From NCBI GenBank assembly GCA_039961735.1, contig JABRVX010000009.1:1-64000 (forward strand): 64,000 nt of DNA. The letters are read 5' to 3'. Made by a program: the position numbers and the translations under genes. This document shows, piece by piece, positions 4,264 to 60,921 of this stretch; the stretch's first letter is position 1, and each line of letters starts with the position of its first letter. A model generated the notes under the pieces. The model searched no databases, had not been told where the DNA came from, and was given only the letters and a program-made list of their open reading frames with translations. The stretch is from Fimbriimonadia bacterium. GTDB taxonomy: Bacteria > Armatimonadota > Fimbriimonadia > Fimbriimonadales > JABRVX01.

Positions 4264-4269
4264 AATCCT

Positions 4270-4298
4270 ATTGTAAACGAACGTACTCTAGCGAGCAA
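4270..4298 (-). promoter_or_regulatory. Promoter of miaA-hfq-dapF, probably leaderless
   Basis: On the minus strand TTGCTC (4293-4298) and TACAAT (4270-4275) are separated by 17 bases. Only 6 bases separate the -10 hexamer from the miaA ATG, so transcription would begin at or next to the start codon. Confidence 0.6.
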
Positions 4299-4335
4299 CG
4301 GCAAGTATAGCACACGGGTATCAGCCGGCACTCGG

Positions 4336-5724: not shown

Positions 5725-7396
5725 CGGTTTCCTTCTCCATGCGCTCGGGGGCGGAGACCCCCATAAGCTCGAGGGAGTTCCTCAACGTCACGCGAACCGC
5801 CTGGCATAGCGTAAGTCGTGCACGGCTCCGTTCGGGGTTCGCCGGGTCCACCACTCTGCAGCGATCGTAGAACAGGTGGAAGAGCCGCGCCAGATCTTGG
5901 CTGTAAGTGGTGAGGCGATGGGGCGCTGTCTCGACGACCACGCGCTCCACCTCGTCCGGGAGCTCCAGAAGCTTCAGCTCCAGCACCACTTCCGCCGGGT
6001 CAGTCAATAGTCCCGGTGTGCACTCGCCTGCCTGGAGATCCTCCAGCTCCGCCTTCCGCAAAATACTGCAGATGCGTGCATGCGCGTATTGCACGTAGTA
6101 CACGGGGTTCTCGTCCGACCGCTTCTTGGCGAGTTCCAAGTCGAAGTCCAGCGCCGTGTCATGCGAGCGCATCAGAAAGAAGAAGCGTGCTACGTCTACC
6201 CCCACTTCGTCCAGGACCTCTCGCAGGGTGATCATCTCGCCTGCACGCGTGGACATTCTCACCTGATCTTTGCCTCGCCATAAGCGGACGAGCTGGTAGA
6301 TGAGAAGCTGTAGCTTGTCGGGGTCGTAGCCCATTGCGGCTACGACCGCCTTCATCCGTGGCACGTACCCGTGGTGGTCCGCGCCCCACACATCAATCAT
6401 CAGGTCGTAGCCACGGTCGTACTTGTTCTTGTGGTAAGCGGCATCCGCCGCGATGTAAGTTGGCTCCCCCGTGCTCCGAACGAGCGGTCGGTCCTTGTCG
6501 TCCCCGAAGTCGGTGGAGCGAAACCACACCGCGCCCTCACGGTCGTAGGCGTAGCCGTGTTCGCGAAGCTGTGCGACCGCGGCCTCGACCAAACCATCGT
6601 CGTGCAGCTTCTGCTCACTAACGAAGTGGTCGAAGTGGAGCCGAAAGGCTTCGATGTCCTTCGCCTGGTCGTCTCGCATCTCTTGCTCGGCGAGGCGCTT
6701 GAAGAGCAACTTGTCCTGGGCGTGGTCGCCCTCCGCCAGACTATCCCCGTACTTCTCGCGGATTGCCTTGGCCAGCTCGACAAGGTACTCACCCTTGTAG
6801 CCGTCGTCCGGTAGGGACACGTCGTAGCCGAGCAACTGCAGGTAGCGCGCACGGACGCTCTCGCCGAAGAGTTGCATCTGCAATGAGGCGGCGGAGTCGT
6901 TCAGATAAAACTCTGTCTCCACTTCCCAGCCGGCTTTGCGCAAGCAGCGTGCGAGAACATCGCCAATCACACCATTCCTTCCGTGCCCCAGCGTGAGGGG
7001 CCCGTTCGGGTTGGCACTCACGTACTCGACCAGTGCCCGCTTGCCTCGTCCGATGTCGGTCTCGCCGAATCGCTCGTCCATCGCCAAGACCCGAGGCAGA
7101 TGGCCGGCGATCCAATCCGGGTCTAGACGCAAGTTGATGAAGCCGGGGGCAGCAACCTTGGCAAGAGACACGCCAGGATGAGAGATGTGGGAGGCGATGG
7201 TTTGCGCAACCTCGATAGGAGGCTTGTGCAGGCCGCGAGCGAGCAACATCCCAATATTCGAGCTGTAGTCTCCATGCTCGGGGTTCTTCGGTCTCTCGAT
7301 GCTGATCGGAGGGGTGTCGCACTCAGGCAGGGCACCTTCACGTACGGCGTGTTCGAGTGCCGCTTGGATTGTCTGTGCTAACTCGCCTCGGATCAC
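5714..7396 (-). CDS. argS: Arginyl-tRNA synthetase
   Basis: A class I synthetase that charges tRNA-Arg in the cytoplasm. The 560-residue product contains the nucleotide-binding segment VSANPNGPLTLGHGRNGVIG; the HIGH motif appears as TLGH, with Thr replacing the first His. It also has the DVWGADHHGYVPRMKA motif, VRMSTRAGE at the KMSKS position, and the C-terminal GVSAPERM typical of ArgRS. The start is GTG 7396, with an aaggaagg site upstream that overlaps the end of the next gene. It is followed by nhaA with an 11-base overlap. Confidence 0.95.
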   Translation of the reverse strand: MIRGELAQTIQAALEHAVREGALPECDTPPISIERPKNPEHGDYSSNIGMLLARGLHKPPIEVAQTIASHISHPGVSLAKVAAPGFINLRLDPDWIAGHLPRVLAMDERFGETDIGRGKRALVEYVSANPNGPLTLGHGRNGVIGDVLARCLRKAGWEVETEFYLNDSAASLQMQLFGESVRARYLQLLGYDVSLPDDGYKGEYLVELAKAIREKYGDSLAEGDHAQDKLLFKRLAEQEMRDDQAKDIEAFRLHFDHFVSEQKLHDDGLVEAAVAQLREHGYAYDREGAVWFRSTDFGDDKDRPLVRSTGEPTYIAADAAYHKNKYDRGYDLMIDVWGADHHGYVPRMKAVVAAMGYDPDKLQLLIYQLVRLWRGKDQVRMSTRAGEMITLREVLDEVGVDVARFFFLMRSHDTALDFDLELAKKRSDENPVYYVQYAHARICSILRKAELEDLQAGECTPGLLTDPAEVVLELKLLELPDEVERVVVETAPHRLTTYSQDLARLFHLFYDRCRVVDPANPERSRARLTLCQAVRVTLRNSLELMGVSAPERMEKETDER

Positions 7397-7413
7397 GTTG
7401 TGCCCCGCCTTCC

Positions 7414-8481
7414 TTAGCCGTCGAGCTTCGCCAGCTCCGCCTTCAGCGTGTTGATGGCCGCGATCTCCTCCGGGTCCGTTTCACCGAGAGCTGCAAGGTA
7501 CAGGCTCACGAAGTCACCGAGGTAACAGAGGGAGAGCATCCGGGTCACCAGGTCTCTGGCGTCCACCATAATCCCGTGCACAGGCATCGGCTCGATCAGG
7601 TTTCGTGTGACCTCCCAGCGCTTGTGCATCCTTTCCGACTCAGTGCCGTCGAAGAGCAGTACCACGGAGAACCTGTCGGACTGCGACTGCGCCCGGGTCC
7701 AGCCCACGATCTCGTTGTGATTCATCTCGGGGAGCACGTGGGCGAACGCGTGCATCTTCGAGTTCTCGTTGATCTGGCACTTCCAGCGAGAGGCCACCAC
7801 CCCTCGATAGCCGCCGAGCCCGTACAGGATGGGGATTCGCCCATCCAACTCGGAAGCGAGCCACTTCGCGCCGTTGTCCGAAAGAGGGGTTGCGGGTCCG
7901 TAGGCGTCACGGATACGCTCGAGGTCGGACACCAGGTACTCCACGTTTACCGCCGAGACGATGCCAACTTCCGCTGCTGCGAGAAGCAGCGGAAGAAACA
8001 GGTAGCCCAGAGCCGTGCGCGGCGGCTGTCCGCCGGGGATGGCAATCGCCTGGACCTGCTCGCGCTCGGCCAGTTCACCGAGCTTGCCGCCGCTCGTGAT
8101 GCACAGCTGCTGGCATCCCCTCTGCCTAGCCTGCTCGAAGCAGCTCAAGGTCTCCTCGGTGTTGCCGGAGTAGCTGCAGAACACGGCCCACGTCTCCTCG
8201 CCTGCGAATGCAGGTAGCTCGTATTCTCGGCAAACCACCACAGGCACCGATCCCTGCTCTTCCGCCACAGAGCGCAGCAGGTCGCCACCCGCAGCCGACC
8301 CTCCCATACCACATACGACTACGTTTCGGATAGGATTCTGGGGCGCTCGAAATCCGGACGAACGGTAGATGCTGATCGCCTCCTCACATTGTTGCGGGAA
8401 GGCTAGGGCGAGTCCCATCATGCCCTTCGGGTCATGCTCGGCGAGCCGAAGTGGATTGTCGAGAATTGCGACAGGTTCCAT
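7414..8481 (-). CDS. Bifunctional phosphoglucose/phosphomannose isomerase
   Basis: A 355-residue SIS-domain isomerase of the archaeal/bacterial bifunctional PGI/PMI type, converting glucose-6-P or mannose-6-P to fructose-6-P. Visible motifs are VVVCGMGGSAAGGDLLRS, CSYSGNTEETLSCFEQA (phosphosugar-binding SIS loops) and EMNHNEIVGW, which carries the family's conserved His/Glu region. Start 8481 (MEPVAILDN) is chosen because a ggagg site precedes it; the longer open frame lacks support and runs toward rpsR. It lies 17 bases upstream of argS. Confidence 0.9.
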   Translation of the reverse strand: MEPVAILDNPLRLAEHDPKGMMGLALAFPQQCEEAISIYRSSGFRAPQNPIRNVVVCGMGGSAAGGDLLRSVAEEQGSVPVVVCREYELPAFAGEETWAVFCSYSGNTEETLSCFEQARQRGCQQLCITSGGKLGELAEREQVQAIAIPGGQPPRTALGYLFLPLLLAAAEVGIVSAVNVEYLVSDLERIRDAYGPATPLSDNGAKWLASELDGRIPILYGLGGYRGVVASRWKCQINENSKMHAFAHVLPEMNHNEIVGWTRAQSQSDRFSVVLLFDGTESERMHKRWEVTRNLIEPMPVHGIMVDARDLVTRMLSLCYLGDFVSLYLAALGETDPEEIAAINTLKAELAKLDG

Positions 8482-8576
8482 TCTCTGAAGTTCCTCCGTG
8501 GTGTCAGACAAAACGGCGTGGTCAGCGCCACGCCGTAGGGTCGCGTTGGGCGGCCCGGCTTGGGACCGCCCGATAT

Positions 8577-8972
8577 CTACTGGGCGACGTACGGCAGCAG
8601 CGCGCACTCCCGGGCGCGGCGAATGGCGGTTGCGAGCATTCTCTGATGTCTGGCGCACGTCCCAGTCTGGCGCCTTGGCATGATCTTCCCACGCTCCGTA
8701 AGGAAGCGACGAAGCTTGGGCACTTCCTTGTGGTCAATCACCCGGGCCTTCTCAATGCAGAAGGCACAGATCTTCCGCCGTCGCTTGAATCGGCGTTGGC
8801 GATCGCGGGGCCCCGCCCCAAGACTTTCCGCATCGCGCGGCTTCGGACCGCTGCGGTATGTGCCCGGTTGACGAGGGGCCTCTTCTTTTCCAGTCCCCTC
8901 GCCCGGAGTTACAGTCTCAGCAGGAACGGGGGTCGACTCCTCCACGGTTTCGGTAATCGGTTCTTCACTCAT
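8577..8972 (-). CDS. rpsR: 30S ribosomal protein S18 with N-terminal extension
   Basis: S18 binds 16S rRNA next to S6 in the small-subunit platform. The C-terminal half has the family core ([20 protein letters not shown], then [18 protein letters not shown]). The usual length is about 75-95 residues. This 131-residue form adds roughly 55 residues rich in Glu, Pro and Thr at the N-terminus ([19 protein letters not shown]). It follows ssb by 10 bases in the rpsF-ssb-rpsR operon. Confidence 0.95.
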
Positions 8973-8982
8973 ATCCGTATCT

Positions 8983-9387
8983 CTACTCCGTTTCGAATGG
9001 GTCGCCGTTCCCGCTGTCCACAGGCTCCGGCATGTCGGCGCTAACCGCATCTAAATAGTCGCGGGACTCGCTGTCGCGTGGGCGGTCTAGCCCCTTCACG
9101 CGCTCCGCAACGACTTCGAAATCGTATCGCTTATGGCCCTCTTGGTCCTCCCAGGTCCGAGTCTGCAGCCTGCCGTCCACGCCGACCAGCCGACCCTTCG
9201 TCAGGTAGTTCGAGACGAACTCTGCGGTCTGGCCCCAGCACACGATGTTGATGAAATCGGCCTGCTGCTCCTGGCTGAAGGCTCGATCCACGGCGATTCG
9301 GAACGATGCCACCTGCTTACCCGTGTTGGTGGTCCTCAACTCGGGATCCTTGGTGAGCCTGCCGACGAGCACTATCCTATTGATCAC
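8983..9387 (-). CDS. ssb: Single-stranded DNA-binding protein
   Basis: A 134-residue protein with one OB fold ([52 protein letters not shown]) that coats single-stranded DNA in replication and repair. The tail is short and ends GNGDPFETE. The protein-interaction tip is normally an acidic stretch ending in Pro-Phe at the very C-terminus; here Pro-Phe is followed by three more residues. It sits between rpsF (11-base overlap) and rpsR, the common order for the housekeeping SSB. Confidence 0.95.
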
Positions 9388-9724
9388 CGTTGACCTCCAC
9401 CTTCGCCTTCTTTACTCGGGGAGCGTCGCGCTCTGGGTCCCGGGAGTACACGCGGACTCGCAAGATGTGCTCCGTGATGGACATTTGGCGGGTGAGTTCC
9501 TTGGGCAATGCCGGAGGGGCCTTTATGTGCATTAGGCAATACACACCCTCACGGCGGCCGGAGATCTCGTACGCCAAGCGGCGCTTTTCCCAAACTCCGG
9601 ATTTCTCCACTTCGCCGCCGTTGTCGGCGACGACCTTGTCGAATCGGGCGATAAGGGCCTCTACTTCCGGCTCCGAGACTTCAGGAGCCACGATGTAGAG
9701 CACTTCGTATTGACGTAACTCCAA
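9377..9724 (-). CDS. rpsF: 30S ribosomal protein S6
   Basis: The 115-residue S6 opens LRQYEVLYIVAPEVSEPEVE and contains GVWEKRRLAYEISGRREGVY, both characteristic. S6 pairs with S18 on the 16S rRNA platform. The first gene of rpsF-ssb-rpsR starts at a TTG codon (9724), with an agggagg site about 10 bases upstream. The C-terminus is basic and Lys-rich and overlaps the ssb start. Confidence 0.95.
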   Translation of the reverse strand: MELRQYEVLYIVAPEVSEPEVEALIARFDKVVADNGGEVEKSGVWEKRRLAYEISGRREGVYCLMHIKAPPALPKELTRQMSITEHILRVRVYSRDPERDAPRVKKAKVEVNGDQ

Positions 9725-30422: not shown

Positions 30423-31574
30423 TCAGCGGCGCTTGACAGAAGAGTTTCGGGTTTGCAGCACAGAGATCATTCCGGCGAATTGGACGAAGACGCGGCCGGT
30501 GCGCGCGTCGGGGAGGACGGTGAGCGGAAGGTCGTCATACTCGAGCACGGAGACGACACTGCCCGTATCCGCATCCAGCACGAAGAGCCGATAGTCGAAG
30601 AGGTGGGTTACGTACAACCGCCGGCGTAGCGGGTCGAGGGTGATGCGTGTCGGTCGGCTGCCGACTCGAACCGACCAGACGGTTTTCAAACTCCGGCCGT
30701 CCAGTGCTAGCACGGTGTCCGAGTGATCCTGCATCGGGACGTATACGTGCGACGACGCGGGGTCCGCAAGCACGTTTGCCGGGAACTCGTGCCACGACCG
30801 CTTGCCATCGCCGAAGCTGCGGCGAGCGAGCACGCGTCCAGATCCCACCGCAACCACGGTGAGACGGTGCCGGCGCGGATGCGCAAGATACAGCCAGTCG
30901 CCCTTGCACTCGGGACGCCCACCCACCAACGCGACAATACGCGACTCTGTGGAGTTCGCCGACCCGAAGACCTCGACCGCTTCCTGCAACGTCCCGGTCA
31001 GCACTACCGACCGGAAGATCCGCGATCCTGTCGAGTCGGTGACGGCGGGCCACCGCTCAGGGACCTCGTGCAGGTGCGTGGCCCTCACCAAGCCGCCCTT
31101 CTCGGGCAGCGGCACGAGCGCGGTGATGCCGGGCTCCGAGGCGACCAACGCCTTTCTCGCTGCGCTGTATGCTAGGTCCGAGCAGGGAAGTCCAGGCCCG
31201 TCCACGCACCATGTGGTCTTCGGCATCAGCGTCACCGTGTCGAAGGCCACAATCGTGTGCCGATCCTCGAGGGTGACGAGCAGTCTTCCATCGGCGGGGT
31301 CGAGGGCGATCGCGGACGCATGGCCAATCAGTGGCACGAGACCGAAGGGGCGAAGTTCGTCACCGGAGAGCACCTCGACGAGGGTGTGAGGCCTCGTAGC
31401 GAATCGTAGGGGAGGAACGGGCGGTGCCTGCTCGGTTCCTACCATCTCAACGCCGCGTTCGATCGGGACAGCAACCCGCGGGCGCTGGCTCACCGACAGA
31501 ACTATGATACACACTAGTCCAAGCAGGCCCCCTAGGAGCAAGAACGCAAGTAGACGAACTGTGTTCTTTACCAT
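30423..31574 (-). CDS. Membrane-anchored YVTN-type beta-propeller protein
   Basis: A 383-residue protein with one N-terminal membrane segment (TVRLLAFLLLGGLLGLVCII) and a propeller of YVTN/NHL-like repeats outside the membrane: AIALDPADGRLLVTLEDRHT, VYVPMQDHSDTVLALDGRSL and ITLDPLRRRLYVTHLFDYRL. It is the last gene of the sigma/anti-sigma/CHAT operon. Its ATG (31574) overlaps the CHAT stop by 7 bases, so it is translationally coupled. The longer open frame upstream lies within the CHAT gene and is rejected. A ligand-sensing or scaffold role next to the protease is inferred from position only. Confidence 0.8.
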   Translation of the reverse strand: MVKNTVRLLAFLLLGGLLGLVCIIVLSVSQRPRVAVPIERGVEMVGTEQAPPVPPLRFATRPHTLVEVLSGDELRPFGLVPLIGHASAIALDPADGRLLVTLEDRHTIVAFDTVTLMPKTTWCVDGPGLPCSDLAYSAARKALVASEPGITALVPLPEKGGLVRATHLHEVPERWPAVTDSTGSRIFRSVVLTGTLQEAVEVFGSANSTESRIVALVGGRPECKGDWLYLAHPRRHRLTVVAVGSGRVLARRSFGDGKRSWHEFPANVLADPASSHVYVPMQDHSDTVLALDGRSLKTVWSVRVGSRPTRITLDPLRRRLYVTHLFDYRLFVLDADTGSVVSVLEYDDLPLTVLPDARTGRVFVQFAGMISVLQTRNSSVKRR

Positions 31575-34291
31575 CCCAACACCACGAACGCCGCCCAGTC
31601 GTATGGTGGCGCCCCGTCTGCGATGAGGTGACAGACTGCCTTCTGAGCGGCGTCCGAAGCATATAGGCTCTTGGCGTAGTACCGATAGAAATAAGCTAGG
31701 TACGATTCCGTAGCAGCATCGCGATCTGCCCACCGCGACCCGATGCAAGCGTGGGCGCCTGCCGCCATCACCGCGCCGGTTAAACCCAGCAAGCCGCGTC
31801 CGCGCACCGAGGATGTCCTCCCAGTGTCGCATGCGGCCAAGAACACTAACCTTGCACTACACTTAGCGCTGGCAATCTCCCAGCCCCGAAGAATGCCCGA
31901 GTCTCCCTCTCCGCGCGCGAGCGAAATGTACGAGGCGGGAGGGTAGTCGTCGGCGTATGTCCCGTGTGCGGCAACGTGTAATACGTTCGCTTGGGAGAGC
32001 GCACGCATCATGGCGTCCTTGGTTGCTGCAGTACCCTCCGCTACAACAACTCGGCCTCCCAGCGCCTGGCGCACAATCTCTGCATCGTGGATCGCAATGG
32101 ATGACTCGCGCGGGCTCAGCTCGTAACGTGACTCGTCGTTCGCCACGCCATTCGCGACGACCCTTACATCCCGCAGCGCACCTCGGCGTAGTTTGCTCGA
32201 ACGGGCAGTCCACTCCACAGCCGCATGCACCGAGTTAGCATAAGAGACGACATAGCGTTGGATCAGGTAGTGGGTCTGCGAGCCTTGGCGCTGCCACAAC
32301 ATCTCGAACGGCAGTGACCACAAAACGCCATCGGGAACGATGACGAGCCTTTTCGTTCCGTGCAGTTCGGGTTCAATAGGTGCGATGAGGGTGTCATACA
32401 GGGCGCCGAAGAGACGGGGCGTCGGATCGGACTTCCACGCGTGCTCAGGGGAGAGTCTGTAGTTGCGTATGAGGCCTGCGAGAGCCCGCAGTTGATCTTT
32501 CGGGACCGTCAGTCGCTTCGCCTTCAGGCCTGCAGCCGTGATGATGAAGGCGATGCTCTCGTTCTCTCCCAAGCAGTAACTCACGATTGCACACTCTCGT
32601 TGCCTCGCCACCTCTCGTGCAGCGTTCGTGATCCAGTCTGGTCTCACGTCGCCAGTGCGCTCCTGCTGGCCAGCGAGTCGCAAGAGCTCGTTGTCCAAGA
32701 GCTGCAGTTCGGCGGTGGCTCGTGCTCGGGCGCTGGGATCCCGAAGCCCATTCTCGTGCAGGGCACGTCTCGCACTGGCAATGGCTGTGCGTATGTCAGA
32801 TACCCGCTTTTCCATCTGCCCGCCACCGGCTAGGCCGAGACCTGCGTCAGACCGGTCGGCCAACGCTGCTAGTGCCTTCATCTCCTCCGATAAGGCGAGC
32901 GCCAGCTGGGCGTGGCCCTGGCGCACGTGTGTAGCAACAAGCAGGCTGTATCCATACCAGGGCGACTTCGGGCCGTCCTCGTACGCCAGAGCCGGATCGA
33001 GCACACCTCCCGCCCAGTCGCGCACAACCTGCACTGCCGCCATGAGCTCGTTCGTTCCCTGGACATCTTTGCCTACCCTGAGCAGCGCCTGCCCCAGCCC
33101 TGAATGGGCCTGCCACAGGAGCACAGGCAATGGCACACGCTCCTGTGCTGTCACAACGGCCTTTCGAAAGAGGGCGATAGCTCCATGGTTGTCCTTTCTC
33201 GCCAGGCTTGCTCTGCCCATCAGCAGCAACCGCTCCACACGCTGCTTTGGTGGCAAATCGAGCGGCAGCTCTCCCAACAGCAATAGGCCCTCGGAAGCCC
33301 TGCCAGTCTCGATCAGGTACGCGGCGTATGCCAGCCGAACGCGGTCCCGGGCATACGGGTCGTTCACACGCAGCGCAAGCTCGTACCATCGCTCCGCGAG
33401 GTCCGGCCTTCCTGCCTTAGGTGCCCATTCGGCCATTTCGGCCAAGATCATGTACCTGCGATCTCCCAGATTGGACCGAAGTGCTATGCGACGAGCGTTC
33501 TGGCCCTCTCGGATTGCTTCCTCGAATCGTCCGAAGGCAGCAAGAATTCGCGCCCTGCCCGCGCTTGCCATCAGTGCTGAGTCGTTTGCTTTTTTGCACT
33601 GCCAATACTGCTCGGCAGCGGCCAGGCATTGAGATGCAATCTGCTCTGCGCGAGCGAATGACCACCAAGCTTCGAGCAGTTGTCCCGACTCCGCCTGCAG
33701 TTGTCCTAGCTCTGCCAGAACCTCTGCATAGTCTCGGCTCGGCACCCCGTGTCGCTCGAACAGGTTTCTGGCGGCCTCGAGCAGCACGCCTGCATCCATG
33801 AACCTACCCTCGTCACCAGTCAGGTTGGCCCGCTGCGCCTGTATGCGGGCCAATAGGCCGAGGTCTCCGAGTCTGCGCGCTATCGGCTCGGCCCTGTCGA
33901 GCGTCTCTCTAGCATCCGGACGCCTAACGGCGTATCTGTACTGCCTGGCAAGGTCCACCAGATCCCTGGCTAGCACGTCGTCTGATACCCCACGGCGAAG
34001 ATCCAGCTCGACGATTCGCTCACCCCACTCGTAGGCGTTTCCAGCATCTCGTGCATGCTCGGCCAAGAGTCGTAGGACTTCATCTACGCCTTTCAAATCA
34101 CCGCGGACAGAACGGGCGCGCAATGCCTCGAGAAGATAGGGTACGGGCTCGCCCGACTCGTGTGCGATTAGTGAGCGTGCATGAGCTACTAGACGGTCGG
34201 TGGACACGCTTGCCACGGGTCGCAGCTCCGGCGCAGTCGTACTCGTGGCTATCATGAGCACACTGAGCACGAACAGTCCCCTGCGGAACAT
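31568..34291 (-). CDS. TPR-CHAT caspase-like protease
   Basis: A 907-residue protein with an N-terminal signal or anchor segment (MFRRGLFVLSVLMIATSTT), about 500 residues of TPR-like helical repeats (for example RFEEAIREGQNARRIALRSN), and a C-terminal CHAT domain (clan CD protease fold) from about residue 620. The catalytic dyad is intact: His near 776 in VLHVAAHGTYADDYP and Cys near 821 in VFLAACDTGRTSS. GLLGLTGAVMAAGAHACIGS is also typical. It lies 10 bases after the anti-sigma gene and overlaps the propeller gene. CHAT proteases are usually activated by ligand or partner binding to the repeats. The N-terminus suggests an extracytoplasmic location. Confidence 0.9.
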   Translation of the reverse strand: MFRRGLFVLSVLMIATSTTAPELRPVASVSTDRLVAHARSLIAHESGEPVPYLLEALRARSVRGDLKGVDEVLRLLAEHARDAGNAYEWGERIVELDLRRGVSDDVLARDLVDLARQYRYAVRRPDARETLDRAEPIARRLGDLGLLARIQAQRANLTGDEGRFMDAGVLLEAARNLFERHGVPSRDYAEVLAELGQLQAESGQLLEAWWSFARAEQIASQCLAAAEQYWQCKKANDSALMASAGRARILAAFGRFEEAIREGQNARRIALRSNLGDRRYMILAEMAEWAPKAGRPDLAERWYELALRVNDPYARDRVRLAYAAYLIETGRASEGLLLLGELPLDLPPKQRVERLLLMGRASLARKDNHGAIALFRKAVVTAQERVPLPVLLWQAHSGLGQALLRVGKDVQGTNELMAAVQVVRDWAGGVLDPALAYEDGPKSPWYGYSLLVATHVRQGHAQLALALSEEMKALAALADRSDAGLGLAGGGQMEKRVSDIRTAIASARRALHENGLRDPSARARATAELQLLDNELLRLAGQQERTGDVRPDWITNAAREVARQRECAIVSYCLGENESIAFIITAAGLKAKRLTVPKDQLRALAGLIRNYRLSPEHAWKSDPTPRLFGALYDTLIAPIEPELHGTKRLVIVPDGVLWSLPFEMLWQRQGSQTHYLIQRYVVSYANSVHAAVEWTARSSKLRRGALRDVRVVANGVANDESRYELSPRESSIAIHDAEIVRQALGGRVVVAEGTAATKDAMMRALSQANVLHVAAHGTYADDYPPASYISLARGEGDSGILRGWEIASAKCSARLVFLAACDTGRTSSVRGRGLLGLTGAVMAAGAHACIGSRWADRDAATESYLAYFYRYYAKSLYASDAAQKAVCHLIADGAPPYDWAAFVVLGW

Positions 34292-34301
34292 CCTACGCCC
34301 C

Positions 34302-35402
34302 TCAGCGCTGCCGCTCTAGCCCAGAGCGGATTCGCCATGCCTGGTACACGTCGCGTCCTCGAGTCGTCTGTCCCATGGACTCTACCGCGTCAGCGTAGTA
34401 GCGATCTGCTGCTCCATACATGCCGTAGATCTCGTAGAGTGCCCCGAGGAGTAGTGAATCCCCTCGGCAAAGCTCCGACAGGCGCCGGACCGTTTTGGCG
34501 AGCGGTTCTGGTGCGGTGCTGAAGAGCCGATCTTCAGATCGCAATCCCGGGTCGTTCTGCAAGTACGATACGATGGTGTACGTGCGCCCATGGACCAACT
34601 GCTCAGACAAGTGCATAGCACTACCCGAAGGAACCTTCCACCGTCCCACTGCGCTCCCGGATTCCTTATCGAAGACCTCGACCATCGTGGTCGAGTCCCC
34701 CGGTGTTCGCACCAAAATATCGAGATCTCGACTAGGCAGGACATCCATAGGTAAGGGATATATGATCCGCACAGGAGGCTCCAGAGATTTCGCGCCACGA
34801 TACTGGTTGCCTTGTATCGTCACTGCAACGCCTGTGGTTCGCGTGAGATTCCTGCACAGCTCGCGCATCACTTCTCGCTTCTCTGCAGGAAGCTCACGCA
34901 GCAACGCTGGTGGCAGCGCAACGGTTACTACGCCGTCTCGATTGACCGGATGACTTGTGCCAAAGAGCCACCACGCGCCGATCACAACCAGCGCAACTGC
35001 GAAAGTGACGGCGGCATCTCGCCACGAGCGACTGAGCGTCCTAACCACCCCCCGGCGAGGGTAGTTCGTGACAGTGGCGGCGGGCTGGCTGCACAGCATA
35101 CGGTCTTCTTGCAATCGCGCGAGCCGCGCTTGACACATGGGGCACTGCTCGATGTGTGATTGAACTAGCTGCCTACGCGCGCCGCCGAGCCCTCCATCAG
35201 CGTACTCGGACAGAGTGACGGAGGCGATGTGTTCGGACGCTGCGATGTGAGCAAATAGCGCAGCAGGTGCTGCCTTAGAGAGCACAGCCTGACAGACCGT
35301 GCACGATTCCACATGGGTACGAACGGCATCGGCATCGGATTCGGCAAGCGCTCCTGCGAGCCAGCGAGTTAGTTCGCCCGAGCTGGGACAGCCGTCACTC
35401 AT
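34302..35402 (-). CDS. Double zinc-finger transmembrane anti-sigma factor
   Basis: A 366-residue protein. Its cytoplasmic N-terminus carries two zf-HC2-type zinc fingers: H30-x3-C34-x2-C37 in THVESCTVCQ and H83-x3-C87-x2-C90 in SHIEQCPMCQ. A single membrane segment follows near residues 130-148 (AVTFAVALVVIGAWWLFG), then about 215 extracytoplasmic residues with a beta-rich part and a short helical C-terminus. This is the layout of anti-sigma factors that sequester a sigma factor until regulated proteolysis. ATG 35402 has an aggagg site and overlaps the sigma stop by 8 bases. The usual single finger is duplicated here. Confidence 0.88.
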   Translation of the reverse strand: MSDGCPSSGELTRWLAGALAESDADAVRTHVESCTVCQAVLSKAAPAALFAHIAASEHIASVTLSEYADGGLGGARRQLVQSHIEQCPMCQARLARLQEDRMLCSQPAATVTNYPRRGVVRTLSRSWRDAAVTFAVALVVIGAWWLFGTSHPVNRDGVVTVALPPALLRELPAEKREVMRELCRNLTRTTGVAVTIQGNQYRGAKSLEPPVRIIYPLPMDVLPSRDLDILVRTPGDSTTMVEVFDKESGSAVGRWKVPSGSAMHLSEQLVHGRTYTIVSYLQNDPGLRSEDRLFSTAPEPLAKTVRRLSELCRGDSLLLGALYEIYGMYGAADRYYADAVESMGQTTRGRDVYQAWRIRSGLERQR

Positions 35403-36519
35403 TCGAAGCCTCCTGCAATCCACTTCCGCTCGTGCCTGTGGCGGTACCCAGGATGGCTCGTGAGATCCTTCGTTGAGCCGATCGTCGGAGGTTCGAAGTG
35501 CATATCTGTGCGTCACGTTGAGCGAGGTGTGGCCGGCCAATGAGTGCAGCAATCTGTGTGTCTGGTACAGGTAACCGGCGTAGAGCATCCTCTCCATTTG
35601 GCGGGAAGGCGATCGCAAAGAGGGCATGGAGTCGGGACACCAATTGGGGCCGAGCAGCGCGCATAAGGCACCGCGCCGTTTCGCCTTCCAGATGAAGAAC
35701 GAACACAGCAAGACGATCGTCGTCGAGCAGCTCGCATGCTGCGGCGATCTCCTCAACTACTTGGAGGGCCTCTACCTCATGTGCGATGTCACTAGAGTCA
35801 GCGGGATCGGCCCTACTGGCTAGTAGGTGGTCGAGAGGTACATGCCGCACCTCTCGGAGGCGTCGCAACTCGAATATAAGAGACACAGCGTGTGTGACCG
35901 GAACTGGGGTCCCGAGGTACGTTAGCAGTGCCTTCAGCAAAGTTGTAGTGTCGAGATGAGAGCTCAGCCCCTGACGCAGCCGGACCGCTCGGCCGAGCCT
36001 GATCGTCTGGAGGGAGTCCAGGTAGGCGTTAGTGGGAACGATGCACGTACCTTGCCACTTACTCAGGCCAACGAGATCTGCGCCGTCGCAGTACCAGAGT
36101 GCCAGTCCCCGCTCCCCGCGACGGCCGCGTGCGATGTCCACGATCTCGTCCTTCACACTGGTCCACACGGGGCCGTTCTTGCGCAGTACTTGACGGTATT
36201 GGTTCGCTATCAGCTTGTTCAGGAACGCAGCCTGGTGCCTAATCCGGTGGCTAGTTCCGATCAGAGCGGGTGCTGCGCGAACGAGGACCTCACCAGCGAG
36301 GTCTTCCAGATCGTCTGAGGACAGCATCCTGGCATGAGCATGTGCGGCCACCCGCGCTACCACGGCCTGACGAAGTGCCTGCCATGCGCTGTCCCCGTCA
36401 AGCTCGAAGCGCTGGGCCGGACCTAGCGAGCCAATTCGCGCTCGGATCCAAGCCGGTCCCACCGGTTTCACTCCAATCGAGGAGCAGACCCCGCACATGC
36501 AGTATGCCGCTGCTTGCAT
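35395..36519 (-). CDS. Divergent ECF-like sigma factor
   Basis: A 374-residue protein, larger than standard ECF factors (about 180-200). Region 2-like sequence is visible as SSDDLEDLAGEVLVRAAPAL and FLNKLIANQYRQVLRKNG. A region-4-like helix-turn-helix lies near the C-terminus (DTQIAALIGRPHLAQRDAQI, then SNLRRSAQRRI). The roughly 200 residues between are unfamiliar. Assignment rests on these motifs and on the 8-base overlap with a zinc-finger anti-sigma gene. It heads the operon behind a consensus promoter, leaving a leader of about 130 bases. The N-terminus is Cys-rich (CMCGVC), and the exact start is uncertain. Confidence 0.7.
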   Translation of the reverse strand: MQAAAYCMCGVCSSIGVKPVGPAWIRARIGSLGPAQRFELDGDSAWQALRQAVVARVAAHAHARMLSSDDLEDLAGEVLVRAAPALIGTSHRIRHQAAFLNKLIANQYRQVLRKNGPVWTSVKDEIVDIARGRRGERGLALWYCDGADLVGLSKWQGTCIVPTNAYLDSLQTIRLGRAVRLRQGLSSHLDTTTLLKALLTYLGTPVPVTHAVSLIFELRRLREVRHVPLDHLLASRADPADSSDIAHEVEALQVVEEIAAACELLDDDRLAVFVLHLEGETARCLMRAARPQLVSRLHALFAIAFPPNGEDALRRLPVPDTQIAALIGRPHLAQRDAQICTSNLRRSAQRRISRAILGTATGTSGSGLQEASNE

Positions 36520-36654
36520 CCTAGCTGACCTCGCACCTCCTCTGAGATGATTAGACTCGGCGCGAACGTCGATCTTAACCGGCTAGGCTATCCGGCAGCG
36601 ATTGACTCACCCCACTCCTGTGCAAGTGAGGCCGCACGGCGGATGCTCCCAAGC

Positions 36655-36683
36655 ATAATAGCCGAGGATTCGGAGTCTGTCAA
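36655..36683 (-). promoter_or_regulatory. Consensus promoter of the sigma/anti-sigma/CHAT operon
   Basis: On the minus strand TTGACA (36678-36683) and TATTAT (36655-36660) are separated by exactly 17 bases. This is a strong housekeeping-type promoter and no other strong one is seen upstream of the sigma gene. The 5' leader is about 130 bases. Confidence 0.75.
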
Positions 36684-36785: not shown

Positions 36786-39700
36786 CTAGTTCGAGAGCCG
36801 ATAGACTCGTACCGGGTGTAGCACCACGGGTCCCATCAGGCCTGATGGGATGAGTGGCGTATCGGCACGGTTGTGGCGCCATGTGGTGAAGGTCTTGCGA
36901 CGTGGCTCAGGACGAGGAGTTCCCTTCACCAGCCACTCCGGCCACGAGCTGAAGGTAACGCCCTGCCAACCGATGTCGTCCGGAAGTTGCTCATCCCCGA
37001 TGAGTCGGTTCACCCATAGATTGGTCACCCGCACCTCGAGCTCGTTGCTGCCCGCCTTCACAGCATCGGTCACGTCGAGACGGAACGGTGGCCACCACAG
37101 CACTCCGAGGTTCTTTCCGTTCACCAGAACCTCGGCGATCTCGCGCACGGTTCCTAGGTCGAGCACCAGTCGCTTGCCCTCGCCCAGCAGAGCCGAATCC
37201 ACATCGAACTGCCGGTGATAGGTGGCGGTGCCGGAGAAGTACTTGATTCCGACCTCTTGGTGATCGGTCCACGAGATCAGATCGCCGAAAGTCGCGCTTT
37301 CGGGTGCGTCCCACCCAGCCGGGAATCGGACCTCCCAAGGACCGGGCAGCTCGAGGGAACGCGACACCTCTGCTTCGATGGCCTGGCTGGCACCAGAGTC
37401 GTGTATCACGCGATACAATCCGGTCTGCCATGCGTGCAAGTAGAACGCACCGTCATGTTCCTTCAACTCCCAGCTCACACTAGGCACCGCGCGCGCTCTG
37501 CCAATGCGGAGGGTCTCGCCCTCTGGGATAGTGACTGTGCGCTCCTTCCCCCCGTCAGAGTAGATCACACGTAACTGCTTCACGATGTTGACGGCGGGGT
37601 CGCCACCCATGCTCTCGTTCGTAGCTTCCACCTCTCCGAACGTTGCAATCGCCTCAGCAACCAAGTCTGTCACATCTCGGCTTCTCCACATGTCACCGAT
37701 TACGCCGTACTCGGCCCTGATGACCTTCACTGCGCTCTCCACCGGGGCCTCTGAAACGCCCGCTTCCACCGTGACCACCGGATCCGCCGTCGGAGCCTCG
37801 CTCCGGAACACCACGAACACGGACCCCGCGGGACCGAGTCTCAATGGCAACTCCACGCCGCCGGGAACCCGCTTGAACATCGCCGCCTTCTCTACCACAC
37901 CCGACTCGGGATGCCACAGCTCAGGCTGACGCCCTTCGATGCGGAAGAAGCACTTCGTCTCCACTACTTGCCGCCCGAACCATGTTACGAAGTATGCGTC
38001 GGCATCCCCGATCCGACGATGGATCGCGTTGACGCCACCCCTCTCGCTGTGGAAGTCGGGTGGGAGCTTCAGGTCTCTCAGTGCGTCGGCAACGGTCGCG
38101 CGTATGGAGCTTCCTATGTCCAGGCCCGCGGAGAGCGGGTCATTCAGGCCAGCCGTCTGGCTTGGAGGTGCACCCACGACGGTTGCGCCTGCTGCAGCAA
38201 GCTCCCGAATCTTCGCCGCGAACTGCGATGACATCCGCCCCGAGGCCGGGAGCGCCAGCAAGCGATAGCTCATCCCTCCCGGCAGCACGAGCCGGCCGTC
38301 CTTCACCGTGGCACCCATGAGGACACGCGCGGTGCAATAGTCGAAGCCGTACCCTTCCGGCACCTGAGCCACACCGTGCATCTCTTCTCGATACGCCTGC
38401 GGCTCGTCCTCGCCCGTGCAGACACACACGTCCGCCACGAACTCGCCTGATTGCAGCAGATACTGGCACCTAGAGAGATAGTCATGCCACGATGGTGCAA
38501 GATGCCACCACGTCTGCGTACGATCCACATGAGAACCCCATGGCCCCATCGTCATGCCCGGCAGCACGCCGCTCGGCCACGGCTGATGAGTGAACCGATG
38601 ATAGATGATCCGGTTGATGCCATTGATGTAGCCGCGGTCGGCGAACGGCTTCCACTGATATGGGTGGTTGGACCAGCCGGCTCGGTCAGGGGTGGCGGTG
38701 AGCGCCTCCGCTCCGACCACCTTCCGCCCTAGCACGTGGGTGATAGATGACGACAGCTTTACACTCGAGTTGATAGTCCCTTCTCCGACCCAGTACTCTC
38801 CCATAATCAGTCCCGCAGGCTCGGCATAGGTGAACGCGTTGAAGGGGCCGTTGCCGTAGGGCTCGACTGCCAACTGCATGCCGTGCTGCTTCAGCCGTTC
38901 GGCAAAACGCCCCGCGTAGTGCTCCGACCACATCTCGGCGATGGTGCGGCGGAAGTCGAATAGGAAGCGCTGAGTCGTGTCTGTGTCGTCGATCCCCACG
39001 CCGCACAGGGCAGGGAGGTAGGGAAGCAATTCGTAGCCGCGGCGCTTGCGGAACTCCTCTGGCATACTCTGTGTCCAGTTCTGCCTACCCGTCTCATAGC
39101 TGTCGATCAGCACCGTGGTGAAGGAGTCGCCGGCAAGCGGACCAGCATCTTGGATGAGGGGGAGCAGACTGCCGTCGAAGTAACGGTCGAACGACTCGCG
39201 GGACAGCTTGTCCACTTCGAGCCCTCGCCCGCTGTCACTTGAGGCGACGTTCTGTGCTCCTGTTAGTGTCCAACCGACTCGGAGTATGGTCCAGCGACCT
39301 TCAGGAATAGACCACGTCAGACGCCCACCGGTAACATGCGTGCTCACATCGGTGAGGCGCGTCCGATCCACCACTGGCCACTTCAGCTCATCGAACGGCT
39401 TGCCGTCGTTGTCACCCATGCTTGTCAGATATGCGTGGTGCGCATCTGGCTGTGCTGGCACATCTACCTCCGGTAGCGCGAACACCGCGATGTCGTGGTA
39501 CTCGTCGTGCACCGTCGGTGGTTGTGGGAGTGTGGTATCGTACTGCGAGGGCCCTTGGACTACCACCGTGGACCACACCACCTTCTTCATCGCATCCTCG
39601 GGTTTCACCCACGGACCGCCGCTGGATGACCATCCGGCGCAGTTGTGTACGGTAATCTCCAGGCCGAGCCGCTTGGCTTCGCGCATCGCGTGTACCATCA

Positions 39701-40061
39701 GTGCTCGCCACTCGGGGGTGTTGTACACGATGGGGCCCTTCGGCATGGTCACGTAGTTGCCGTTGCTGTCGTGGCCGCCGAAGCTGCCTGCGTTAAAAAT
39801 GTGTGCCCCGCCGAGGCCTGCCTGCTTCATGGCCTCTAGGTCGGTGGTTATGCCCTCTTTCGTGACGTTGCCGTCTATCCAGTGCCACCACGTGTGGGGG
39901 CGCGACCACGCAGGTGGCGAGGCAAACTGGTCCCGTAGCTGGTCGCCGGTGTGCTCGCTTATAGGCGAGACAGACTGGTCTTGGATCTGGCCGCCGCCGA
40001 GCGCTTCGGCGAAGGTGATAAGAATCGGAGTGATCATGACGAGACTCCCTAGTGCGTGCAT
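36786..40061 (-). CDS. Secreted GH106-type alpha-L-rhamnosidase
   Basis: A 1091-residue exported glycoside hydrolase. After a signal peptide (MHALGSLVMITPILITFAEA) comes the family opening RPHTWWHWIDGNVTKEGITT, then DLEAMKQAGLGGAHIF and LEITVHNCAGWSSSGGPWVK, matching GH106. Catalytic-domain segments such as LAVEPYGNGPFNAFTYAEPA and a C-terminal galactose-binding-like domain (LDLGTVREIAEVLVNGKNLG) follow. It would cleave rhamnose from plant or microbial polysaccharide outside the cell. Start 40061 has gagg at 8 bases; ATG 40037 also has a ribosome-binding site and would give a shorter signal peptide. Long upstream codons to 40325 look spurious. Confidence 0.88.
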   Translation of the reverse strand: MHALGSLVMITPILITFAEALGGGQIQDQSVSPISEHTGDQLRDQFASPPAWSRPHTWWHWIDGNVTKEGITTDLEAMKQAGLGGAHIFNAGSFGGHDSNGNYVTMPKGPIVYNTPEWRALMVHAMREAKRLGLEITVHNCAGWSSSGGPWVKPEDAMKKVVWSTVVVQGPSQYDTTLPQPPTVHDEYHDIAVFALPEVDVPAQPDAHHAYLTSMGDNDGKPFDELKWPVVDRTRLTDVSTHVTGGRLTWSIPEGRWTILRVGWTLTGAQNVASSDSGRGLEVDKLSRESFDRYFDGSLLPLIQDAGPLAGDSFTTVLIDSYETGRQNWTQSMPEEFRKRRGYELLPYLPALCGVGIDDTDTTQRFLFDFRRTIAEMWSEHYAGRFAERLKQHGMQLAVEPYGNGPFNAFTYAEPAGLIMGEYWVGEGTINSSVKLSSSITHVLGRKVVGAEALTATPDRAGWSNHPYQWKPFADRGYINGINRIIYHRFTHQPWPSGVLPGMTMGPWGSHVDRTQTWWHLAPSWHDYLSRCQYLLQSGEFVADVCVCTGEDEPQAYREEMHGVAQVPEGYGFDYCTARVLMGATVKDGRLVLPGGMSYRLLALPASGRMSSQFAAKIRELAAAGATVVGAPPSQTAGLNDPLSAGLDIGSSIRATVADALRDLKLPPDFHSERGGVNAIHRRIGDADAYFVTWFGRQVVETKCFFRIEGRQPELWHPESGVVEKAAMFKRVPGGVELPLRLGPAGSVFVVFRSEAPTADPVVTVEAGVSEAPVESAVKVIRAEYGVIGDMWRSRDVTDLVAEAIATFGEVEATNESMGGDPAVNIVKQLRVIYSDGGKERTVTIPEGETLRIGRARAVPSVSWELKEHDGAFYLHAWQTGLYRVIHDSGASQAIEAEVSRSLELPGPWEVRFPAGWDAPESATFGDLISWTDHQEVGIKYFSGTATYHRQFDVDSALLGEGKRLVLDLGTVREIAEVLVNGKNLGVLWWPPFRLDVTDAVKAGSNELEVRVTNLWVNRLIGDEQLPDDIGWQGVTFSSWPEWLVKGTPRPEPRRKTFTTWRHNRADTPLIPSGLMGPVVLHPVRVYRLSN

Positions 40062-40572
40062 TGGCGTCGCCTCAATCGCGGTGCTGTACTCCTGATTCTG
40101 GGCCTCCCGCGCACCCCCTGCCAGCGGCTTGTACTGCAAAATGGGCGCCGGCCGCTCCTGAGCTGAGGGGCACGGGAGTGGATGAAAACCAGTCATCTTC
40201 GAAAGACGCTCCCCTAACTCCACTTCGTGCACCATCGCGGTCTCCCAAACGCCTCGCGAGATGTGACCGGGCTGCAAGCTTCGGGGGTCACTCCCGTCCG
40301 GGTGCACCGTCGCCTTATCCCACACGCCTTATCGGGATGACGCGGGTTCGTGCTCCAGCCTATCCCGCCAAAAGGTGTTGTGGTGTAACCTATGTCTCCG
40401 CACCGATTCGTCACCGACGTACCGGGAATGGACTAGTGAAAACGTGGTACAATGTCACTTCCGGGCGGCAAACATGACCTTCGCTGTCGAAGTGACCCTC
40501 TAAGCACCACGCCCCAGACCAGCTAGAGGAATCGGTACGCCGACAATCCACGTGGACGGAGCGTAAGGCTAA
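40062..40572. other. Gap entering the accessory island
   Basis: About 510 bases with no supported gene. It should hold the promoter of the rhamnosidase gene (minus) and that of the unknown gene at 40573 (plus). A TACAAT hexamer at 40448-40453 on the plus strand is the best -10 candidate, but no -35 sits at normal spacing. I see no integrase fragment or att repeat. Confidence 0.4.
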
Positions 40573-58230: not shown

Positions 58231-58509
58231 CCTGCCTATGTCCCGTCCCCACGTCTGGCTATGCTGCCCGTGCGAGCTACACGTGTTCGGCGACAACGGG
58301 CACTCCCTGCGCAAGCCTCGCGATCTTGGCCATCTCTTTGCGGCATCTGCGTGACTATACAGGCCCGCCCGCAGCGCCTGCATTGGCATGATGCGCACAC
58401 GTTTCGGCTGCCGCTGCCGCGATTCTCTCGGCAGCGCTAGGTCAGCAGCCGAAGTGTTTTTGCACGTAGAACAAGGGCTGCCAGCTCACGTATCTTAGTG
58501 GTCGCCCTG

Positions 58510-58515
58510 TACAAT
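58510..58515 (+). promoter_or_regulatory. -10 element of a leaderless start
   Basis: TACAAT ends 6 bases before ATG 58522. Transcription would start at the initiator codon. No -35 at 16-18 bases and no ribosome-binding site are seen. Confidence 0.5.
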
Positions 58516-58521
58516 GGGGCC

Positions 58522-60921
58522 ATGAACGGACCCGGACGCCTCAGATCGCTCCCGATCCTCTTCCTCGTCTCAGGTCTGATTGCGCTATCGTGGTCTGCGG
58601 GTTGGGCACTGTCGGGGCCACACACCACGATCCTCGTTCCTCTGTCGGCCTCGCCGACCTGGAAGGACATGGTTTTCCTCGCCGCCGTGCCAGCAGCCAC
58701 TGTGGCTAACGACGGAGCGCCGTCCGTAATTGCCTTGGATGCGTCGCTCCAGATCGGGCCCGAGATACAGGACTATGCGCGAAGGTACCGCCCCGACAGA
58801 GTCGTTCTCGTCGCCGACGGGCACGCCGATGTAGTGCTCGGCGCGCGCAAGGCGCGCACGATCCTAGCCAAGTCTGCCGAGGAAGCGGCTCTGGCCCTGA
58901 GCAGCGCGTACTGGAAGACGAGTCGCATGGCGGTCGTCTGCTCAGAAGACGATTACGCCTCGGCCCTCGTGGCCGCTCCGCTCGCCTCACTCTTGAGGTC
59001 ACCGCTGTTGTTCTCCCGGCGGCAGGGTGTGTCCGACGCGACGGTCGAGGAACTGGCGAGGCTCGATGTGCGTGAGGTGATCGCAGTGGGACTGGACCAG
59101 AGTCTGGTGCGCAGTCGGGCTTGGAAGCTCACCACTTTGCGGAACGCGCTGGACGTTGCCGCGTGGATGCGGTCGCGTGGGCTCGCGGTCCGGTATCTGG
59201 CCGCCGTCAATCCAGAGGACCGAAGCCGAACGGTAATCAGGAAGCTCTCGCTGGCAGGGGCCCTACTGGCGGCTGGGCGCGGTGGCCTCGTCGTTCCTCT
59301 CACGTATGACGTTCGCTGGAAGCGAGCAGCCCGATCCTTCGCACTTGACGGAGCGGTTCCGGATGGCGTCCCGAGATCTGTCGCACCCGCCAAGTCAGGC
59401 ACCATCGTGCTTGATCGAGAGACGTACCCGTACGTCCTGATGGGTGAGCCCGAAGAGCGGAATCTACGCCTATCGCTCGATGCGAATCGAGATGGGCTGT
59501 TCGGCCAGGTGGGGGAAGGACCGTTCGCTTCCGGTGACACGGTCCAACTTGGCGGGAAGACCTACGCGATCTCCCTCGGGACGCGCACCAGCTTTGGCAA
59601 GACTGATGTGCACCTAACTTGGCCGACCGCAGAGCAACTCTGTAGCGACCTCCGCCGCTTCTACCGCGCGCTGGGAGCACCACCAGAGAGCCTTTGCTTA
59701 GTCGGATTCCCGGATGCCATTCCGCAGGCCATCATCGGTCACGGAGCAGTGGTCGAGGAGCAGGCGTCCGACCTGCCCTATGCCAACGCCGATGAAGATC
59801 CATTTGCCGAGATAGGAGTGGGGAGGGTCATCGCCGAGAACGTGTCGCTTGCGACGCTCTACGCCAGCCGCGTCCTGACCTACCGCGACCTGCTTAGTCC
59901 TGAGTGGCAGGACCGGGCATGTCAGGCCGAGTGGGAGACCACCTACAAAGGGCTGTTCGAGAACGTCGGCTTCGACGCAAGCTACGTACACACGGAGGAG
60001 GACCTAGCGTGGGTAGACCCTCCCGCCGACGGAAGCCCTGGCGTCCGCGCACAGAGCTTCAGCCAGCACTCGCCTCTGGCCAACTGCGCCGTGATGAGTC
60101 ATGCCAGCCACTCCTGGTGGCGTGGCCTGGGCAGCACCTTCTCGTGGGACGCGACGGTGCTGATGGCCCCTGCGGTCGTCGAGTCGGGCGGGTGCGGCAC
60201 GGCATGCATCGATCGCGAGCCGGACTATCGATCGGTCGTTGCGCGCCTGTTTCGGCAGGGGGCGGTCGCTTTCCGTGGGGCGACAAGGGAGATCCCAGCC
60301 GAGGCTGAGCCAGGACGTCAGGAGTTTTGGAACGGAGTCTTAGCAGGTGCCCCCATCGGTCAGGCTCACAGGCGTGCGGTGAACAGTACGATACTAGCAG
60401 TACTGGACCTGAAGGAAGGTCCCGATGGGATTTATCGCTACTCTCTACATATACACTCGCTGTTCGGCGACCCTGCCTTCGTTATGCACCTGCCAGCGAA
60501 GCCGCGCTCGCGGCCGGCGCACGTGGCCGTGGCGGGTCACACAATTTCCGTTCACGCGCCGCAGCAATGGTGGCCTGTCAAGTTCACTCCTCCCTCGGAC
60601 TGGAAGGAGTGGGCGGACAAGGATCTGTACGTGATTCGTGGCGCGGGAGCGTATGCGCTGTCCGACTGGTGCGGGCAGGGCTACAACCTCGAGCAGATGT
60701 ATGTCACCGCGGAACTCACGTCGCGCCGCCGTGTCACGAGTGTGGAGCAGGTCCAGACTCCCCCGGCGCCGCTCGGATGGCGAGGAACCTGGTACTGCGA
60801 TCCCAACCCGGACGGCTCATACACCTACCGCTGGGCAGTGCGACTGATAGACTTCGACCAGATCGCCGGCAAGATCAAGAACTCGATAGAACGCCTAGAC
60901 TACGAGGTGTCATTCGAGTAG
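58522..60921 (+). CDS. Exported C25-like (gingipain-fold) caspase-family protein
   Basis: A 799-residue exported protein. MNGPGRLRSLPILFLVSGLI starts a signal or anchor. Residues about 50-250 resemble cell-wall-binding repeat 2 segments (ALVAAPLASLLRSPLLFSRR, VEELARLDVREVIAVGLD). The C-terminal half has the gingipain-like protease layout: His527 and His530 in CAVMSHASHSWWRG, and Cys558 or Cys562 in VVESGGCGTACIDRE, followed by VARLFRQGAVAFRGATREIP and SLFGDPAFVMHLPAKPRS. The catalytic dyad is plausible but the exact Cys is uncertain. ATG 58522 sits 6 bases after TACAAT, so the start is probably leaderless. Substrate unknown. Confidence 0.7.
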   Translation: MNGPGRLRSLPILFLVSGLIALSWSAGWALSGPHTTILVPLSASPTWKDMVFLAAVPAATVANDGAPSVIALDASLQIGPEIQDYARRYRPDRVVLVADGHADVVLGARKARTILAKSAEEAALALSSAYWKTSRMAVVCSEDDYASALVAAPLASLLRSPLLFSRRQGVSDATVEELARLDVREVIAVGLDQSLVRSRAWKLTTLRNALDVAAWMRSRGLAVRYLAAVNPEDRSRTVIRKLSLAGALLAAGRGGLVVPLTYDVRWKRAARSFALDGAVPDGVPRSVAPAKSGTIVLDRETYPYVLMGEPEERNLRLSLDANRDGLFGQVGEGPFASGDTVQLGGKTYAISLGTRTSFGKTDVHLTWPTAEQLCSDLRRFYRALGAPPESLCLVGFPDAIPQAIIGHGAVVEEQASDLPYANADEDPFAEIGVGRVIAENVSLATLYASRVLTYRDLLSPEWQDRACQAEWETTYKGLFENVGFDASYVHTEEDLAWVDPPADGSPGVRAQSFSQHSPLANCAVMSHASHSWWRGLGSTFSWDATVLMAPAVVESGGCGTACIDREPDYRSVVARLFRQGAVAFRGATREIPAEAEPGRQEFWNGVLAGAPIGQAHRRAVNSTILAVLDLKEGPDGIYRYSLHIHSLFGDPAFVMHLPAKPRSRPAHVAVAGHTISVHAPQQWWPVKFTPPSDWKEWADKDLYVIRGAGAYALSDWCGQGYNLEQMYVTAELTSRRRVTSVEQVQTPPAPLGWRGTWYCDPNPDGSYTYRWAVRLIDFDQIAGKIKNSIERLDYEVSFE

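Follow-up and report, generated by a model that had tools for sequence, protein, structure and literature searches.

A four-gene operon on the minus strand (30423-36519) of a 64,000-nucleotide (nt) stretch of DNA from a Fimbriimonadia bacterium (contig JABRVX010000009.1, hereafter the window) is predicted to encode an unusually long sigma factor, a membrane-bound inhibitor, a secreted caspase-like protease of the TPR-CHAT type and a propeller protein. We propose that the operon forms a transmembrane sigma switch in which CHAT cleavage of the anti-sigma factor releases the sigma factor, a reading whose chances we judge to be about even. The roles of chromosomal CHAT (caspase-like) proteins in bacteria are largely unknown outside CRISPR and defence, and the trio of sigma factor, anti-sigma factor and secreted CHAT protein supplies a concrete candidate substrate for one of them. 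The operon also exposes what appears to be a sigma family mostly missed by Pfam. We label this family of sigma-like proteins of 330–420 amino acids (aa), which includes the 374-aa protein of the window, LSIG. The features of the operon, all on the minus strand, are as follows.

36655-36683, minus strand: sigma-70 type promoter, TTGACA-N17-TATTAT, 11/12 matches
35395-36519, minus strand: LSIG, predicted long divergent sigma factor, 374 aa (by family profile)
36160-36387, minus strand: LSIG region-2-like part, approximately residues 45-120 (profile alignment to ECF sigma factors; also aligns with the ordinary ECF sigma factor in locus L092)
35773-36159, minus strand: LSIG-specific insert between regions 2 and 4, with an LALW...GL..W motif followed by a delta-subunit-like stretch (alignment A3)
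35437-35772, minus strand: LSIG region-4-like part and C-terminal helices resembling a helix-turn-helix (HTH), approximately residues 250-361 (alignment A3, model and profile)
34302-35402, minus strand: putative membrane anti-sigma factor, 366 aa from ATG (PF13490, zf-HC2, E = 4.3e-11, two stretches)
35292-35315, minus strand: first HxxxCxxC finger, H30/C34/C37, invariant in alignment A4
35133-35156, minus strand: second HxxxCxxC finger, H83/C87/C90, invariant in alignment A4
34959-35015, minus strand: predicted single transmembrane helix (anti-sigma factor), with 5 K/R on its N-terminal side and 1 on its C-terminal side
34305-34958, minus strand: predicted anti-sigma outer domain, a beta-sandwich (FN3-like) followed by TPR-like helices, conserved in the family (model and weak FN3-type fold matches)
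31568-34291, minus strand: TPR-CHAT protein, 907 aa (PF12770 E = 2.3e-52, TPR_12)
34217-34279, minus strand: predicted N-terminal hydrophobic signal segment of the CHAT protein (hydropathy)
31964-31966, minus strand: codon of CHAT His776 (alignment of CHAT open reading frames, ORFs)
31829-31831, minus strand: codon of CHAT Cys821 (same alignment)
30423-31574, minus strand: putative membrane-anchored YVTN/PQQ-type beta-propeller, 383 aa (TIGR02276 and PF13360, both slightly below cut-off)

The core of the operon recurs in relatives. A search for LSIG covered 291 genomes of the phylum to which the window belongs, with matches accepted at E = 1e-15 or better; 33 genomes had one, and in most of these anti-sigma profile matches lie beside LSIG. 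Pseudopilin genes of an Armatimonadota type (DUF1559-like) in relatives such as L090 and L237 point to Armatimonadota as the probable phylum. The Pfam CHAT model was then run on these 33 genomes, and linkage was defined as a CHAT domain no more than 7 kb from LSIG on the same contig. Linkage was found in 16 genomes from eight families (G000, the window's own genome, and G013, G097, G121, G147, G149, G210, G226, G227, G231, G232, G236 and G241-G244); in another, G157, the anti-sigma factor and CHAT adjoin on one contig, and several LSIG loci lacking a nearby CHAT stop at contig edges. LSIG genomes carry 0–8 CHAT genes each and are 2–7 Mb in size, and the estimated chance of finding a CHAT gene near LSIG is ~0.4–2% per locus, a rate that is not a formal probability because the genomes are related. 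Seven Acidobacteria loci carry the same trio, with the same anti-sigma type and the same LSIG; they were found through CHAT and so are not independent support for the linkage.

The earlier note on this DNA made its proposal depend on conservation of the four-gene order in relatives, and this holds in part: the sigma/anti-sigma/CHAT core is conserved far beyond chance and extends to Acidobacteria, with gene order and strand differing among loci and without conservation of the propeller. The same-strand order of LSIG, anti-sigma factor and CHAT seen in the window occurs in G013 (L262) and in the Pyrinomonadaceae locus L148, while the other trio loci have the order CHAT-LSIG-anti-sigma or are convergent. 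In three LSIG loci a caspase-type C14 peptidase stands instead of or alongside CHAT. As judged from gene content, the conserved unit is the trio without the propeller. Gene calls in the relatives are mechanical, and early CHAT calls in L236 and L239, based on TPR repeats, were dropped after the Pfam CHAT search. In a tree of LSIG, the window protein sits on a long branch in a clade of 12 rows (support 100/99), ten of them CHAT-linked. CHAT linkage is not clustered over the tree as a whole, and repeated loss or gain must therefore be assumed. Propellers and clan CD peptidases recur at LSIG loci: in L262, for example, a 1209-aa protein that joins a WD40 beta-propeller to a C14 caspase domain (3602-7231) is encoded just upstream of an LSIG/anti-sigma/CHAT/CHAT run.

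By homology the 374-aa protein is a sigma factor, which is demonstrable only through its relatives; alone, it has no sigma-family match in Pfam, NCBIfam or PADLOC. A profile of 34 LSIG proteins was aligned with hhalign to a profile of 41 ordinary extracytoplasmic function (ECF) sigma factors, built from seeds above the Pfam cut-off, and matched it at 98.5% probability (E = 3e-14) across regions 2 and 4, which in LSIG are separated by a long insert; control comparisons with the anti-sigma family were null. The window protein by itself scored 23.2 bits on the ECF profile (best shuffled copy, 2.1), and its relative L139_6 lies above the Pfam Sigma70_r2 cut-off (28.7 versus 24 bits). The description 'divergent sigma-like protein' in the earlier note is thus borne out. 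The insert weakly resembles the N-terminal domain of the RNA polymerase delta subunit (HARE-HTH, E = 5.5e-4), a likeness kept only as a hint because PF05066 gave no confirmation.

The second gene encodes, as had been claimed, a membrane protein with two HxxxCxxC fingers, and its layout is that of class I (zf-HC2) anti-sigma factors: the HxxxCxxC domain is followed by one membrane helix, and a sigma gene is adjacent. Members of the family (alignment A4) retain both HxxxCxxC motifs, a single membrane helix and an outer domain that is conserved and ~220–300 residues long, and this double-finger, one-helix type is common to LSIG loci. Against the PDB, the family profile matches the ChrR anti-sigma factor (E = 4e-6) and DdvA. 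The excess of positive charge before the helix places the N terminus inside, according to prediction, where the fingers would bind and inhibit LSIG.

The TPR-CHAT protein is a predicted cysteine protease, with the profile match and His/Cys dyad of clan CD CHAT peptidases. The earlier note's intact dyad withstood alignment: at positions 776 and 821, H and C are each kept in 147 of 148 aligned CHAT ORFs. None of the LSIG-linked CHATs inspected has lost the dyad, suggesting that catalysis is under selection. This is the sole CHAT gene found in the window's genome. PADLOC returned only a CHAT-region similarity to BovA (E = 9e-11), and a single-protein scan of the genome contigs with the window CHAT found no close relative, so this exact version appears to be lineage-specific. 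By a crude measure of N-terminal hydropathy rather than a signal-peptide predictor, export-type segments were scored in 21 of 22 complete LSIG-linked CHATs, compared with 26 of 45 ECF-linked CHATs and 36% of background proteins. In the window protein, Arg residues precede this segment (MFRRG...), favouring a C terminus outside. CHAT and the anti-sigma outer domain are therefore predicted to share the side of the membrane outside the cytoplasm, an arrangement also found in the DdvA fusion described below. The opposite-side placement that the earlier note named as refuting is thus not the one predicted. A second caspase-fold peptidase is encoded in the window, an 807-aa ORF (58498-60921, plus strand) matching Peptidase_C25 (gingipain-type, clan CD; E = 1e-11). 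The anchored YVTN propeller of the earlier note is retained on sub-threshold matches (PQQ_2/YVTN/YncE); phmmer found no homologue of it in LSIG loci, so we regard it as an accessory of this lineage.

Recomputed ORF ends and spacings agree with those given previously: the LSIG and anti-sigma genes overlap by 8 nt, 10 nt separate the anti-sigma and CHAT genes, and the CHAT and propeller genes overlap by 7 nt. The promoter, which had also been noted, lies 135 nt upstream of the first ATG, that of LSIG; none of 3,000 shuffles of the 300-nt upstream region reached its score, and only three sites of this grade (TTGACA/TATTAT type) occur on both strands of the 64 kb. All four genes appear to be served by this one consensus housekeeping-type promoter. 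Directly upstream of it lies a gene for a GH106 alpha-L-rhamnosidase (36786-40325, minus strand).

The pairing of sigma and CHAT genes is not confined to LSIG. In relatives of the same order, an ordinary ECF sigma gene (Sigma70_r2 above cut-off) followed by a zinc-finger-type membrane protein and CHAT is recurrent, and a sigma gene lies near 45 of 99 CHAT genes (80 named loci). The sigma-CHAT neighbourhood thus seems to be a common theme, and the window one version of it. Five loci (L062, L067, L070, L076 and L084), from several genomes, have the arrangement sigma-ZF-sigma-CHAT, in which a single zinc-finger gene is flanked by two different sigma genes, and genes for PEP-CTERM-type proteins stand directly downstream of ECF-linked CHAT genes in L053 (5919-6704) and L085 (7578-8315).

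A protein of known structure joins two members of the trio in one chain. PDB entry 8rot_B ('CHAT domain-containing protein', 991 aa) matches the anti-sigma profile at residues 7-90 and the CHAT profile at residues 822-938, and its N-terminal part has the same sequence as 'Antisigma factor DdvA' (8rlz) wherever the two align. From this shared sequence we take 8rot to be Myxococcus DdvA, for which the structures are 8rot, 8rw5 and 8rlz. The fusion and the conserved trio together suggest that CHAT works with the anti-sigma factor.

Genes, domains, catalytic residues and conserved association are read from sequence; the binding of LSIG, the cleavage, the signal and the regulon are what we infer from them. 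In the proposed switch, LSIG would be kept in the cytoplasm through binding to the two zinc-finger domains of its membrane-anchored anti-sigma factor, while the TPR-CHAT protease would be exported and lie beside the outer domain of that factor on the far side of the membrane. A signal would be detected by the TPR part, perhaps together with the anchored propeller, upon which CHAT would cut the outer domain; ordinary intramembrane proteolysis would then free LSIG to direct RNA polymerase to its regulon. The window's genome encodes site-2-type M50 peptidases. We favour release by CHAT because of the DdvA fusion and the conserved trio, the retained dyad and a predicted topology that permits contact with the outer domain. 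With slightly less confidence, short of an even chance, we suggest a widespread, so far undescribed module in which a hitherto unrecognised family of long sigma factors, whose regions 2 and 4 are separated by an insert, is controlled across the membrane by exported CHAT or C14 proteases acting at site 1 on dedicated double-zinc-finger anti-sigma factors.

Several observations weigh against release by CHAT. Because half of the LSIG loci lack a CHAT gene close by, LSIG pairs must be able to function in its absence as well; in one such locus (L091, genome G119) a Ser/Thr protein kinase gene (7329-9578) follows LSIG in place of CHAT. Many CHATs in ordinary ECF-zinc finger-CHAT loci have no export segment, so the same-side geometry is not universal. 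The AlphaFold models are of low confidence, both for the anti-sigma factor (predicted local distance difference test, pLDDT, 62) and for LSIG (pLDDT 66; predicted template modelling score, pTM, 0.47). A Foldseek search of the PDB with the LSIG model gave nothing significant, the top row being sigma-28 (E = 0.54); the sigma identity, which the earlier note had tied to a sigma-fold match, is strongly indicated by the profiles.

Of the alternatives, the one we take most seriously, while considering it unlikely, makes CHAT the output: the anti-sigma factor would sense the signal itself, through its outer domain or zinc-finger chemistry, and freed LSIG would raise expression of the neighbouring secreted protease, which would target other envelope or foreign proteins. 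ECF sigma genes frequently sit beside their own target genes, in many loci CHAT is encoded on the other strand and has a promoter to itself, and the LSIG pairs without CHAT would fit readily. Against this stand the single housekeeping-type promoter of the window's four genes and the presence of CHAT on the anti-sigma chain itself in DdvA; nor was any bipartite motif common to the LSIG and CHAT upstream regions found above shuffles, in a comparison of eight loci with low power. The same fusion shows that CHAT can share a chain with an anti-sigma domain, and is thereby compatible with a further, improbable reading in which CHAT, with its TPRs and the propeller, is a ligand-binding partner that alters the grip of the anti-sigma factor on LSIG without cutting, or processes itself as in a zymogen. 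The dyad kept in all LSIG-linked CHATs inspected speaks for catalysis instead.

Lower still do we place a cytoplasmic TPR-CHAT protein whose N-terminal segment is an uncleaved anchor, and whose target would be either LSIG itself or the cytoplasmic portion of the anti-sigma factor. The frequent lack of an export segment in ordinary ECF-linked CHATs would agree with this, as would the proteolysis of the sigma factor itself proposed for ECF54 (PMC8999054), but the Arg residues before the segment favour an outside C terminus, the neighbouring propeller is likewise N-anchored and, in DdvA, CHAT comes after the membrane helix. That the operon is a chance assembly and the 374-aa protein not a working sigma factor seems very improbable: the protein is highly divergent, with its long branch and no Pfam match, yet conservation of the trio over eight families and a second phylum contradicts a chance neighbourhood, and the LSIG-ECF profile match contradicts the rest.

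The sigma-CHAT link is itself not new, having been noted for ECF54 and being built into the DdvA fusion. The closest known system is DdvS/DdvA of Myxococcus xanthus, in which DdvA serves as anti-sigma factor to the ECF sigma factor DdvS and the inactivating signal is unknown (PMC4374960). Both systems combine a sigma factor with an anti-sigma factor that carries zinc fingers and is anchored in the membrane, and in both a CHAT domain lies, or is predicted to lie, across the membrane from the sigma factor. DdvA carries one finger domain, the membrane helix and CHAT in one chain, whereas the window encodes CHAT as a separate protein, predicted to be exported, alongside an anti-sigma factor with two finger domains plus an outer domain of its own and a sigma factor of a long, divergent type. 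No zinc-finger-CHAT fusion was present among the relatives fetched; one candidate, L111_5, was rejected as a chance motif in a signal segment. The trio would account for the DdvA fusion as one variant within a wider system. For ECF54 sigma factors, CHAT, subtilase or carboxypeptidase proteins occur in conserved context and proteolytic control without an anti-sigma factor has been proposed (PMC8999054). The window shares the conserved sigma and CHAT gene context but, comparing by description only, differs in that nearly every CHAT-linked LSIG gene comes with a membrane anti-sigma factor of the zinc-finger type.

In type III-E CRISPR systems, CASP-sigma is inhibited by Csx30, which the TPR-CHAT protease Csx29 cleaves (PMC10028731). 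There, as in the window, one locus encodes a sigma factor, an inhibitor of it and a protease of the TPR-CHAT type, with cleavage of the inhibitor shown for CASP only; in the window the inhibitor is a zinc-finger membrane protein and CHAT is predicted to be exported, so that the trio would extend the logic of CASP to envelope signalling. The earlier note's 'CRISPR-free' applies to the locus, where no cas gene, Csx30-like gene or repeat array was seen among the genes examined around the operon (Cas7-11 and Csx30 profiles not searched), but not to the genome, which has cas1 matches on two other contigs (C42:3628-4497, reading through a stop codon, and C12:119358-120014). Operons of metacaspases (C14) with sigma-70 genes were reported in 2012 from myxobacteria and others (PMC3501461); they too set a clan CD cysteine peptidase beside a sigma gene, and some LSIG loci carry C14, while the window has CHAT. 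CalpL/CalpT/CalpS is a Lon-based parallel (PMC11417357). Finally, the window's one-helix membrane anti-sigma factor resembles those of the RseA/RsiW type, from which our model of site-1 followed by site-2 cleavage is borrowed, with the difference that the site-1 protease would be caspase-like rather than DegS or PrsW.

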